Made by a program: the position numbers and the translations under genes. From contig NZ_KB913017.1 in the NCBI RefSeq assembly GCF_000383975.1, positions 1,717,105-1,781,104 on the forward strand: 64,000 nt of DNA, in the 5' to 3' direction. Positions within the stretch are counted from its first letter, which is position 1. Each line of letters starts with the position of its first letter. Shown piece by piece: positions 10,531-15,047 of the stretch. Origin of the DNA: Natronorubrum tibetense GA33 (GTDB lineage: Archaea > Halobacteriota > Halobacteria > Halobacteriales > Natrialbaceae). A model generated the notes under the pieces. It saw nothing but the letters and a program-made list of their open reading frames with translations. It was not told the origin of the DNA and did not search any database.

Positions 10531-11418
10531 TCAGCGACGGGTCTGACGGACGGTTACACCGACTCCCAGCACGGCGAGTACCGCGACAATCGTGAGAGCG
10601 ATACCGAATCCTGCCAGTCCGTCACTATCGTCCGTGTCGTTTCCGTCGTCTGCGTTCTCTCCATCGTCGTCGCCGTTGTCGTCACTGCTGTCCGTGTCGT
10701 CATCGGTGCCGTCGATGTCGTCGTCCGTGCCGTCAGTGTCATCCGCGCCACCTCCATCGTCGGTGTCCGTCTCACCGTCTCCATCGGTATCGTCGATACC
10801 GTTTTCATCCCCGTCTGCTGTGTCATTCCCCTCAGTTTCGGTCGTATTCGTGTGATCGTCGGCTCCGCCGCCGACACCGCTGCTTCCGCCGCTACCCGGG
10901 GCCGTCCCACCCGCCGATGACTCGTCGGTTTCGCCGACGACTTCGCCGGCACTGTCCGTTACCAACGAATCGCCGTCGACGAACTCGAGTCCCGAGAGCC
11001 CGTCGTCACCGACGGTCATCGTCACCGTCGCGAGCGTCGGTTCGTCGACGCTCTCTGCGCCGACGTTCGACTGGGTCAGGAACACGTGCCCGGTGTCGGC
11101 GTCGTGGCTGTGATAACTGACACCACCTAACTCTTCGAACTCGACGCTCTCGACGCTCGCGTCGGTCGGTGTGTAGCTCAGGTTCGCCTGAAAGCCAGCG
11201 GTGTCCGCCGCGGTCGACGACACCGTGACGGTAACGATGTCGTCGCTCGAGTCGGTCACCTCGAGCGCCAGCGTCCCGTCCGCACCGGTCGTCGTCAGTT
11301 CGCCGTGTGAGTCGCTTTCGGCGGTCGTTGCGTGTGCGCCAGCCGCCATCGCCGTCGTCGCGAGGACGACCACCATGGCGAGGACGAGGAGTCGCTTCGT
11401 CGATCTCGTAGTTGTCAT
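10531..11418 (-). CDS. Membrane-anchored cohesin-like surface protein
   Basis: The protein has 295 residues in four parts. A signal peptide (TKRLLVLAMVVVLATTAMAAGAHA region) is at residues 6-31. A beta-rich domain follows at about 38-160, with patterns of cohesin modules ('TAGFQANLSYTPTDASVESVEF', 'PTLATVTMTVGDDGLSGLEF'). Then comes a long Gly and Asp/Thr/Asn linker (about 170-265). A final helix GLAGFGIALTIVAVLAVLGV with a basic end resembles a PGF-CTERM-type sorting tail, without the proline. It should stand on the cell surface. It lies just downstream of a protease carrying a dockerin, so it may be its docking partner (inference). ATG 11418 begins the signal peptide. Confidence 0.7.
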   Translation of the reverse strand: MTTTRSTKRLLVLAMVVVLATTAMAAGAHATTAESDSHGELTTTGADGTLALEVTDSSDDIVTVTVSSTAADTAGFQANLSYTPTDASVESVEFEELGGVSYHSHDADTGHVFLTQSNVGAESVDEPTLATVTMTVGDDGLSGLEFVDGDSLVTDSAGEVVGETDESSAGGTAPGSGGSSGVGGGADDHTNTTETEGNDTADGDENGIDDTDGDGETDTDDGGGADDTDGTDDDIDGTDDDTDSSDDNGDDDGENADDGNDTDDSDGLAGFGIALTIVAVLAVLGVGVTVRQTRR

Positions 11419-11466
11419 TATGTTGATTTGGTGTGTAAATCGGTTCTGTTCAATACTATCCAACAC

Positions 11467-11486
11467 AAAAATCGCCTCACGGCGAG
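11467..11486 (-). terminator. Intrinsic-terminator-like hairpin after the subtilase gene
   Basis: Read on the minus strand, TCGCC-GTGA-GGCGA is followed by five T. It lies about 20 bases past the protease stop codon and before the cohesin-like gene, so it may end most transcripts between the two. Confidence 0.45.
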
Positions 11487-11504
11487 GGGAGAGTGTTTCG
11501 CTGG

Positions 11505-14500
11505 CTATGCCTCGAGTGCGTCTGCGCCGTGGGTAGCGACGATTTCTTCGAGGATGAGCGTGACGTCACCGGCATCGACCTGCCCGTTTCCGTTCATGTC
11601 GGCGATCGACTCGTGGAACGTGTCGGTCGGTTCGTCACCGGCGAGATACTGCTGGGTGAGCGTCACGTCGTAGGCGTTGACTGCCCCGTCGGCGTTGACG
11701 TCGCCGGGCCAGGCCGTCGAAATCGTGCCGTCGATCGGCAGGATGTCGAGCTCACCGTGTTCGTCGTTAAGGTAGGTGTTCGCCTCGTCGAACGCCAGCG
11801 TGGACTGGCCGTCGCTTTCGTTGACGAATTCGAACTCGACCTCGGCGAGCGTCGGGGTCGATTCGTCGCTGGCTTGTGCCTGCGCGATCGAGAACGTCCC
11901 GTTGTCGTTGTCGATGTTCGTCACGGGGTCTGCGAAGTCGCCGCCCTCGATTTCGGTGACCTGGACGATGTCCGGATCGAAGTGAACCTGCGTCTCGTAT
12001 CCAGCGACGGCATCGGCGGACGTGTTGATATCGACGGTCGTCGTGTCGCCGACGGTCCCGATGTGATCTCCATCACCGAACGTCAGCAGGCCGTCCGGCT
12101 GTTCGATAATCGTTACGTTGCTGGAGGCGGCGTCATCGTCGCTTGCAACCGTAACGGGAGCCGTTCCGGCGTCACTGACGTTGGTCTCCCACGTCAGCGT
12201 GATCGGCATCGTTTCACTCTCCTCGAGTTCGACCGTCGTACTGTCGACCTCGTTGCCTTCGAAGTCGGAGAGCGTCACGGTTTGCGTCTCGTTCTCGGCG
12301 CCGACGTTGCTCACGGTGGCGTCGACAATCAGTTCGTCGCCTTCGATCACCGGCTCGTTGGTCTCCGCGATGTCAACCTGGAAACCGGTTCCGAGATCAG
12401 TCTGGAGGTATTCGACGGCGTTCGCCAGAATCGTATCGGCGTCGTCGGTGTAGTCGTCGTCACCGACGAACGTGGTGTACCCCAGGTTCGATGCCAGCAC
12501 CGTGGCACTCTGTTCGTCGACGGCGAACCCGTCGCCGACCGTCGTGTCAGTTTCGGGTATGGCGGTCTCCGCCAGCACGTCGAACTCGGTGTCGTCGAAC
12601 CAGGTGTGGTCACCGAACGCCGCAGTGTGGAGGTCGACGCTGTCGCCCTCCTCGCCGACACCGTCGAAGATGTCGTGCGTCGCCGTCAGTTCGTAGCCGA
12701 CCGGCGGCGTGACGAAGTCGTCCTGGAACGTGGTGCCTGGCTCACCCGCGACCTCGGAGTGGACCGGAATCGCGTTACTCTCCTCGCCCCACTGGTCGAG
12801 GTAGACGACACCGGTAGCCGCGTCGTCGGTCGCGTCGATGAACGCCTCTGCGTTCGCCTCGTCTATCTGCTGGACGACGATGGCGTCGTAGCCGTTCGTC
12901 GCCTCTTCGGCGTCGACGACGGTCGGAGCGTACATCGGCGGTAGCGACTCCTCGAGGGTCGCTGCGATGTCGGCACCGTGCGCGTCGTTGTCGTCGACGA
13001 CGGCGACGGGAACGTACTCCTCGAACACCATCGTCGGACCGGTGGTGATGACTGCCTCGTCGTCGAGTCCCGTGACGGTGTGCTCGAGCGAGAACTCGCC
13101 GTCGGTGTCCGCGGTCGTTTCGACGGTGATCGTCAGTTCGTCGGTGACGGGACCGTCGAGATCGACCGACTCGCCGAACTCGACTTCCTCGCCCTCGACG
13201 AACAGGGTCGCGTCGTCGGTTTCGTACTCGCCAGCGATATCGACGGTTACCGTCTCGCCGTTCGCGACATCGAGGGTTACGTCGACCGCATCACCGCCTT
13301 CGATGCCGTCGGGTTGTCCGTCGATCAGTTCGGCGTCGAGTCCGTCGGCGAGTTCGAAGTTCTGAACGGTGACTTCTTCCGCTTCGACCGACACGTCGGT
13401 ACTCGAACTCTCGTAGCCGAACGCGTCGGCGGTCACGGTGTACTCGCCTTCGGCGGCGATCAGGCTGTACTGGCCGTCCGCATCGGTCGTGGTGCTCCCG
13501 CCGTCGTCGAGATCGACGGTTGCGCCCTCGATCGGAACGCCGTCGTCGTCGGTGACGGTGCCGTTGACGCCGCTATCGAGGGCGACCAGGTCGGTCGCGG
13601 CAGCGACGTCGATGATCCCGTGTCCGTACTCGGTGTTCGGCTCCTCGTCGGGAGCGTGATCCGGCTGCCAGGCGGTTTCTTCCATCGCATCGTACAGCAG
13701 TTCGCGGTCGGCGTCACCGCCGGAGGCGGCGCCCATCAGTGCGAAGGCACCGGCTTTGTGTGGCGCAGACATCGACGTTCCGGAGTAGGTGCCGTCGTAG
13801 CCACCGCCGGGGACCGCGCTCAGCACGTCGACACCGGGTGCCGCTGCGTCCGGCACGACGTACTCGTCGGGCCAGTAGTCCGGTGCGTCCGGATACGCGC
13901 TATCCGTCTCGATGAGTTCGCCGCTGGAGAACGATGCGACCTGTGCGTCTTCGTCGACGGCACCGCTCGCGAAGTTAGGATAGACGTTCCCGGGTGCTCC
14001 GCTGACTCCCTGACCGCTGTTTCCGATCGACGAAACCAGCACGACGCCGGCATCTCGAGCGTTTTCGGAGGGCTCGACCATCTCGTTGTCGTAGCCGTCC
14101 ACGCCGAGACTCATCGTGACGATGTCGGCGTCGGTGTCGTCGACGGCCCACTCCATCCCGGCGATGATTTGAGCGAACGTTCCGCCGCCGGCGTCGTCGA
14201 GAACCTTTCCGTGGTGGAGTTCGGCGCCGGGAGCGACACCGTAGGCGGGAACGTCACCGTCGGGATCGTCCGGTCCGACGACGGTTCCGCTCACGTGCGT
14301 CCCGTGTCCGTTTCCGTCGTTGGGGTCGCTGTCGATCGGCTCGCCGCTCCCGTCGAACTCGATCCAGTTCCCGTCGTCGATCTCGAGGTCGGGATGGTCG
14401 GTGTCGACGCCCGTATCGAGGACTGCCACACCCGCGCCCTCACCCTGGGTCCCGTGTTGGTCCCAGACCTCGGTCGCGTTGATCATGTCGAGCCCGTACG

Positions 14501-15047
14501 TGACGCTTTCGTTCGTCGGCTCTACCGCCGGCTCATCCGCCGACTCGGCGTCCGTACTGGCGTCGGTATCGCCGTTCTCACCCGTCGTTTCCACGTCGAA
14601 GTTCGCGTGGATCGACTCGCCACCGGTGTACCGCAGCACTTCCTCGGGTGACACCTGCGTGGTATCGACCTCGAGGAGGACCGCGTTCGCGATCCAGAAC
14701 CGGTTGACGTGTTCGACACCGTCCGTCTCTGCGGCCCACCGGACTGTGTCGGTCTGCGTCGCTTGTGCGTGTTGTTGTAACTCGCCGATGGCGTCCGCCG
14801 TACTTGCCGAGGCGGCGACGTCGGCGCTCTCGAACCGAACCACCATCTCCGTGGTTCCGTCTGCCTCGTGCAGCGCCTCATCGATTCGGTCTCCTGTGAG
14901 TTCGACATCGTCGAGTTTGTCGTCGGCTGCCGATTCCCCGTCGAGCGTCCCGGCTCCTGCCATTGCCGGGAGTGACGTGACCATTAATAGCGCAAATACT
15001 ACCACTATGCTCCGTCGGAGCGTCGATTTCGATCGTTGTCTGCTCAT
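11505..15047 (-). CDS. Secreted S8 subtilase with cohesin-like and dockerin modules
   Basis: The protein has 1180 residues. A Sec-type signal peptide (RRSIVVVFALLMVTSLPAMA region) is followed by a propeptide (about 60-150). The subtilisin domain carries the triad D211 (VLDTGVD), H248 (GHGTHVSG) and S425 (GTSMSAP). After it come a carboxypeptidase-regulatory-like beta domain (about 490-565), a ThuA/amidotransferase-like region (about 685-890), a CARDB-like beta domain (about 895-985), a cohesin-like domain (about 986-1111) and a type I dockerin (about 1112-1180). The dockerin has two calcium-loop repeats, GDVNADGAVNAYDV and ADMNGNGQVDAGDV. It is an extracellular protease that could self-assemble or dock onto the neighbouring cohesin-like protein. 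Modules are recognised by pattern; docking is inferred. Confidence 0.88.
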   Translation of the reverse strand: MSRQRSKSTLRRSIVVVFALLMVTSLPAMAGAGTLDGESAADDKLDDVELTGDRIDEALHEADGTTEMVVRFESADVAASASTADAIGELQQHAQATQTDTVRWAAETDGVEHVNRFWIANAVLLEVDTTQVSPEEVLRYTGGESIHANFDVETTGENGDTDASTDAESADEPAVEPTNESVTYGLDMINATEVWDQHGTQGEGAGVAVLDTGVDTDHPDLEIDDGNWIEFDGSGEPIDSDPNDGNGHGTHVSGTVVGPDDPDGDVPAYGVAPGAELHHGKVLDDAGGGTFAQIIAGMEWAVDDTDADIVTMSLGVDGYDNEMVEPSENARDAGVVLVSSIGNSGQGVSGAPGNVYPNFASGAVDEDAQVASFSSGELIETDSAYPDAPDYWPDEYVVPDAAAPGVDVLSAVPGGGYDGTYSGTSMSAPHKAGAFALMGAASGGDADRELLYDAMEETAWQPDHAPDEEPNTEYGHGIIDVAAATDLVALDSGVNGTVTDDDGVPIEGATVDLDDGGSTTTDADGQYSLIAAEGEYTVTADAFGYESSSTDVSVEAEEVTVQNFELADGLDAELIDGQPDGIEGGDAVDVTLDVANGETVTVDIAGEYETDDATLFVEGEEVEFGESVDLDGPVTDELTITVETTADTDGEFSLEHTVTGLDDEAVITTGPTMVFEEYVPVAVVDDNDAHGADIAATLEESLPPMYAPTVVDAEEATNGYDAIVVQQIDEANAEAFIDATDDAATGVVYLDQWGEESNAIPVHSEVAGEPGTTFQDDFVTPPVGYELTATHDIFDGVGEEGDSVDLHTAAFGDHTWFDDTEFDVLAETAIPETDTTVGDGFAVDEQSATVLASNLGYTTFVGDDDYTDDADTILANAVEYLQTDLGTGFQVDIAETNEPVIEGDELIVDATVSNVGAENETQTVTLSDFEGNEVDSTTVELEESETMPITLTWETNVSDAGTAPVTVASDDDAASSNVTIIEQPDGLLTFGDGDHIGTVGDTTTVDINTSADAVAGYETQVHFDPDIVQVTEIEGGDFADPVTNIDNDNGTFSIAQAQASDESTPTLAEVEFEFVNESDGQSTLAFDEANTYLNDEHGELDILPIDGTISTAWPGDVNADGAVNAYDVTLTQQYLAGDEPTDTFHESIADMNGNGQVDAGDVTLILEEIVATHGADALEA

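Follow-up and report, generated by a model that had tools for sequence, protein, structure and literature searches.

A dockerin-bearing haloarchaeal subtilase and its putative cohesin anchor, encoded as a two-gene unit

In Natronorubrum tibetense GA33, a secreted subtilase that ends in a cohesin and a dockerin is encoded upstream of a small, presumably surface-bound protein built around a second cohesin, and comparison across Halobacteria makes it quite probable that this second cohesin receives the dockerin in trans, a clamp that would keep the protease at the cell surface. Sequence comparison and the analogy with Archaeoglobus fulgidus both point to such tethering. Coordinates are collected in Table 1; the window is the whole 64,000-nucleotide stretch analysed.

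Table 1. Features of the window pair and of the multi-cohesin proteins of genus g11
Feature	Position	Strand	Remark
Cohesin anchor protein, 295 aa	10531..11418	-	start at MTTTRS...
C-terminal AGF motif, hydrophobic segment, basic tail	10534..10632	-	
Acidic linker, 38% D+E	10633..10929	-	
Anchor (A-type) cohesin, residues about 38-160; proposed dockerin receptor	10939..11307	-	homology and fold
Secreted S8 subtilase with C-terminal cohesin and dockerin, 1180 aa	11505..15047	-	
Type I dockerin, two repeats, residues 1114-1169	11541..11708	-	sole dockerin in genome
Enzyme-borne (E-type) cohesin, residues about 985-1109	11721..12095	-	Pfam genome search and fold comparison
CarboxypepD_reg domain, residues 494-566	13350..13568	-	Pfam
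Peptidase_S8 catalytic domain, residues 202-477	13617..14444	-	Pfam; catalytic motifs intact
Multi-cohesin proteins of g11 (number of cohesins)	L089:1161-7424 (14), L090:1619-3490 (3), L092:4565-8341 (8), L094:13728-17570 (4+2)		

The subtilase and its neighbour

By its sequence the larger protein is an S8 subtilase of predicted activity: Pfam Peptidase_S8 matches it with 123.5 bits, and the Asp (VAVLDTG from residue 207), His (NGHGTHV from 246) and Ser (GTSMSAPH from 423) motifs of the catalytic domain are all present, behind a signal-peptide-like N-terminus. Dockerin_1 (PF00404) matches residues 1114-1165 with 42.8 bits against a cut-off of 22.9 (E 6e-11), covering two F-hand repeats whose calcium-ligand positions are conserved in an alignment of 14 sequences, and the profile of this dockerin matches solved dockerins. 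The E-value and the conservation across families rule out a chance motif. The sequence-only reading had described the protein as a subtilase ending in a cohesin and a two-repeat type I dockerin, with which coordinates, lengths, motifs, Pfam and fold all agree; the genome-wide search that it proposed returned no second dockerin in the window genome.

The cohesins are more divergent. The genome search gives that of the enzyme 25.8 bits, above the 24.1 that Pfam requires, but a plain hmmscan of the 1180-residue protein leaves it below, while Pfam and NCBIfam searches with the anchor alone detected no cohesin, so that family-built profiles and fold comparison were needed to recognise it. The anchor module is a cohesin because it is homologous (E down to 1.4e-11) to the repeats of a 2087-residue protein that Pfam Cohesin itself recognises with 278 bits; the two window cohesins match each other in profile comparison with a probability of 99.1. 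AlphaFold models that include the enzyme and anchor cohesins (pLDDT 83.5 and 85.8, respectively) predict the cohesin jelly-roll fold for both modules, and these models match solved cohesins: Z is 16.3 (4uyp) and 15.0 (A. fulgidus 2xdh) for the enzyme cohesin and 12.6 (4u3s), 11.3 (1ohz_A) and 10.7 (2xdh) for the anchor cohesin. Searched against PDB sequences, the anchor profile found no match. Other weak cohesin matches in the window genome were judged unlikely dockerin partners, since similar matches of about 270 residues are common in genomes without a listed dockerin and since the family-built profiles miss them, bar one weak partial hit in L102. This cohesin-like protein of roughly 270 residues is widespread, both in the same genome (L004, C1:1163904-1164233) and in many family genomes, including some where no dockerin is listed.

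The anchor gene lies 86 bp downstream of the subtilase gene on the same strand (-), and its open reading frame has an alternative GTG start upstream, at 11466. The protein runs from a signal peptide through the cohesin, the acidic linker and a hydrophobic segment to a basic, arginine-containing tail; homology, fold and sequence bear out the cohesin, acidic linker and membrane tail of its earlier description. Anchors of relatives likewise end in a hydrophobic segment and a basic tail, mostly with PGF, where the window protein carries AGF. Its tail reaches 13.3 bits where PGF-CTERM archaeosortase A substrates need 24.5, which makes archaeosortase processing of this protein doubtful, although an archaeosortase A (ArtA) gene is present in the genome. 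Permuting PGF reportedly blocks processing and lipid attachment, as the title of one study has it. Given the low score and that report, the window anchor may remain an ordinary membrane protein, and with AGF in place of PGF its anchoring is uncertain.

Conservation of the unit and its expansion in genus g11

Comparison of gene neighbourhoods indicates that the subtilase and anchor genes are a conserved unit. Within Natronorubrum, the pair sits between genes for a TYW2-like methyltransferase and a helicase in the window, in N. texcoconense (G108) and in G105; in five other species the same flanking genes are directly adjacent and both genes of the pair are absent. Unrelated genes occupy the place of the pair in two further species, and this is therefore a variable site. 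By reading, the genes found there (L169:1943-4603 and L174:4861-8220) are SRPBCC-like and dihydrofolate-reductase-like.

Among the family genomes searched, an anchor-type cohesin and a cohesin-dockerin gene co-occur in the same 22 genomes, a tally in which the anchor of G011 was found in a separate look at its neighbourhood. Cohesin-dockerin genes of the window kind are present in about 35 of the 391 Halobacteria genomes sampled (22 of these genomes in Natrialbaceae), and genus g11 of that family has multiplied such modules into scaffolds; the expectation that such a system would be unusual in a halophile thus did not hold. In the same sample outside g11, 32 of the 34 cohesin-dockerin genes, drawn from several families and partly from near relatives, have a same-strand cohesin anchor gene without a dockerin directly downstream. 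The two exceptions are a copy in L130 that shares its neighbour's anchor, a single anchor gene lying between two cohesin-dockerin genes (L130:2317-9877), and one copy of Haloarchaeobius iranensis (L085) without an adjacent anchor; a further partial match on a short contig (L132) has no anchor. Subtilases make up most of the cohesin-dockerin enzymes scanned. A second enzyme type (L133-L137) is a calcineurin-like phosphoesterase, with CBM96 in three cases, that carries a C-terminal dockerin and no cohesin and whose gene is followed by an anchor gene at -4 to +6 bases.

Anchor and scaffold cohesins on one side and enzyme cohesins on the other form separate lines. In a tree of 127 cohesins, built on few columns and unsure in its deep forks, the enzyme-borne, anchor and scaffold types group apart with few exceptions (6 label changes, against 57 in shuffles). 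All 71 anchor and scaffold cohesins have T or N at one position of the strand taken as beta6, where T occurs in 4 of the 52 enzyme cohesins; in bacterial cohesins this strand is part of the face that binds the dockerin.

The scaffolds come from three g11 genomes. In G032, one protein of 2087 residues holds 14 cohesins and a second one three; single-cohesin proteins also occur, as do ten dockerin genes in a span of 33 kb. A protein of 8 cohesins and a cluster of six dockerin genes are found in G030; G031 has a cluster of two, with cohesin proteins of 4 and 2 modules. By Pfam, 12 of the 15 dockerin proteins scanned from these clusters, some of them partial sequences, are subtilases, and some g11 enzymes carry two cohesins and a dockerin. 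Both the 8- and the 14-cohesin proteins end in a PGF tail. The scaffolds are built from the anchor type of cohesin, not the enzyme type, and together with the single anchors of the genus their cohesins form one well-supported tree group. Judged from these sequences, the pattern is what would be expected of a receptor line if dockerin enzymes and sockets had multiplied together, and the g11 cluster is a candidate for a proteolytic cellulosome analogue in archaea.

Tethering and the alternatives

In the arrangement that we favour, the two genes would be transcribed together, and the subtilase, which has no anchor of its own, would be exported and fold outside the cell. Its dockerin would bind calcium and dock in trans on the cohesin of the co-encoded anchor, which would stand on an acidic stalk and be held at the membrane by its tail; the docked protease would stay at the surface and release peptides near the cell, presumably to its benefit. 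The enzyme's own cohesin would most likely serve as a spacer or as a second, weaker docking site.

Several comparisons argue for this tethering: the lone dockerin beside an anchor, the pairing of nearly all such genes with an anchor gene, the joint presence and absence of the two genes, the separate cohesin lines, the hydrophobic and basic tails of the anchors together with an archaeosortase gene in the genome, the use of anchor-type cohesins in the g11 scaffolds and the phosphoesterases without a cohesin that precede anchor genes. By analogy, the like layout of A. fulgidus, for which binding is published, points the same way. Counting against it are the AGF tail and the preserved fold of the enzyme cohesins, which could therefore bind the dockerin as well. 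So do three large dockerin-bearing proteins of another kind near which no cohesin was recognised (L087:4450-9306, L106:3247-7752, L107:5107-9513). They are 1468-1618 residues long, with a dockerin-like region near residues 495-597; L087, the one that was scanned, proved to be a subtilase. Two haloarchaea, G011 and G067, have clusters of proteins that end in a dockerin, GH5, GH9 and GH10 enzymes among them (L104:3754-19895 and L105:253-20000), with no cohesin scaffold recognised in the stretches examined.

The sequence-only reading had left two possibilities, a tether to the cell or chains of proteases. While tethering is well supported by comparison, we found no positive support here for chains, though the enzyme does keep a folded cohesin. 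If the dockerin of one subtilase bound the cohesin of another, chains or oligomers would result, with the anchor only capping or tethering them; both modules occur in one protein and are conserved together across families, some g11 enzymes have the two cohesins mentioned above, and since in A. fulgidus both cohesins are said to bind the single dockerin, the model stays alive. The divergence of enzyme from anchor cohesins at the beta6 motif speaks against it, and there are dockerin proteins (L133-L137, L089:7845-9836) that lack a cohesin, which suggests that an enzyme can do without one and that the common partner is the anchor. On balance we regard chains as improbable.

It is less probable still, and in our view quite unlikely, that the dockerin docks in cis, on the cohesin of its own chain, to give a C-terminal module that is stable in salt, the anchor serving something else. 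The linker between cohesin and dockerin is short and conserved across genera, and a single-chain model reaches a pTM of 0.76 (given without inter-module confidence), but cis packing leaves unexplained the constant neighbouring anchor and its loss together with the enzyme, as well as the enzymes with a dockerin and no cohesin that are encoded beside anchors. Finally, that the modules are mere Ig-like and EF-hand-like spacers for stability, without specific docking, hardly seems credible: cohesin-like domains do occur in many haloarchaea without a dockerin, but the canonical calcium-loop residues are conserved in both dockerin repeats, dockerin and anchor genes are strictly paired, and the homologous A. 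fulgidus pair is published to bind (PMC9705933).

Relation to known docking systems

The window pair belongs to the archaeal, non-cellulosomal kind of cohesin-dockerin system. A cohesin-dockerin gene followed by the gene of a membrane-tailed cohesin protein is the layout of the Archaeoglobus fulgidus unit ORF2375/ORF2376, whose dockerin 2375 binds cohesin 2376 strongly and specifically (PMC9705933). In an 8 kb stretch of presumed A. fulgidus (L176), a 506-residue protein ends in a cohesin and a dockerin and overlaps one of 190 residues that has a cohesin and ends in a PGF tail; the pair agrees in size and domain borders with those two ORFs. As in the window, cohesin and dockerin end the upstream protein, and the downstream gene encodes a signal peptide, a cohesin and a membrane tail. 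In A. fulgidus, however, the sequence of the upstream protein is not that of a subtilase, there is a 20-base overlap between the genes and the tail is of the PGF type, whereas the window pair comes from an extreme halophile and has an acidic linker and the AGF motif. In another genome of the family group of the presumed A. fulgidus genome (f15), L177:1654-4644 encodes a cohesin-dockerin protein, a PGF cohesin anchor and then a third, small secreted dockerin protein.

In the clostridial cellulosome a type I dockerin likewise sits on a subtilisin-like protease and a cohesin on a surface-held protein, and the double-dockerin S8 protease of C. thermocellum favours ScaD, a scaffoldin that is bound to the cell (PMC12484212). 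The window system differs in having no cellulases, carbohydrate-binding scaffoldin or SLH anchor, but one enzyme and one cohesin anchor in its genome, and an archaeal tail. No dockerin-bearing cellulase was found in the window genome, its lone dockerin being on the subtilase, and genome searches recognised no multi-cohesin protein that could serve as a scaffoldin. With a single dockerin and no multi-cohesin protein recognised, a cellulosome is ruled out there.

Archaea are said to be without large scaffoldins, except ANME archaea with up to 5 cohesins (PMC9012536). Their dockerin and cohesin modules are archaeal and non-cellulosomal like those of the window, the common dockerin proteins being ABC-transporter binding proteins (PMC9012536); the g11 scaffolds differ in having 8 and 14 cohesins, no dockerin and a place amid subtilase genes. 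For Ca. Stygibacter (Cloacimonadota), the parts of the account available to us predict a cellulosome-like complex with dockerins on S8, as here, and C25 peptidases and a large cohesin scaffoldin (PMC8542988); the MAG is bacterial, glycoside hydrolases are part of that complex as well, and those parts describe no dedicated two-gene unit. In the open-access literature we found no work on haloarchaeal cohesin-dockerin systems, and earlier priority is possible; as far as that literature shows, the conserved haloarchaeal protease-anchor pair, its phosphoesterase version and the scaffold expansion are new.

Taken more widely, we lean slightly towards seeing the window pair as the simplest version of a portable docking system of archaea. 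A dedicated anchor cohesin would hold a secreted enzyme, mostly a subtilase and in some lineages a phosphoesterase; in g11 this cohesin would have been multiplied to give true scaffoldins with 8 and 14 cohesins that assemble subtilase arrays, a counterpart of the cellulosome for digesting protein. For protein display at high salt, plugs and sockets that withstand salt would be of use. In archaea that do not break down cellulose, the cohesin-dockerin modules have been described as having no known purpose; retention of proteases at the surface would give them a concrete role. Among relatives, the step leads from a single plug and socket to scaffolds with 8 and 14 sockets, which makes the evolution of a cellulosome-like machine traceable inside one archaeal family, around proteases instead of cellulases.
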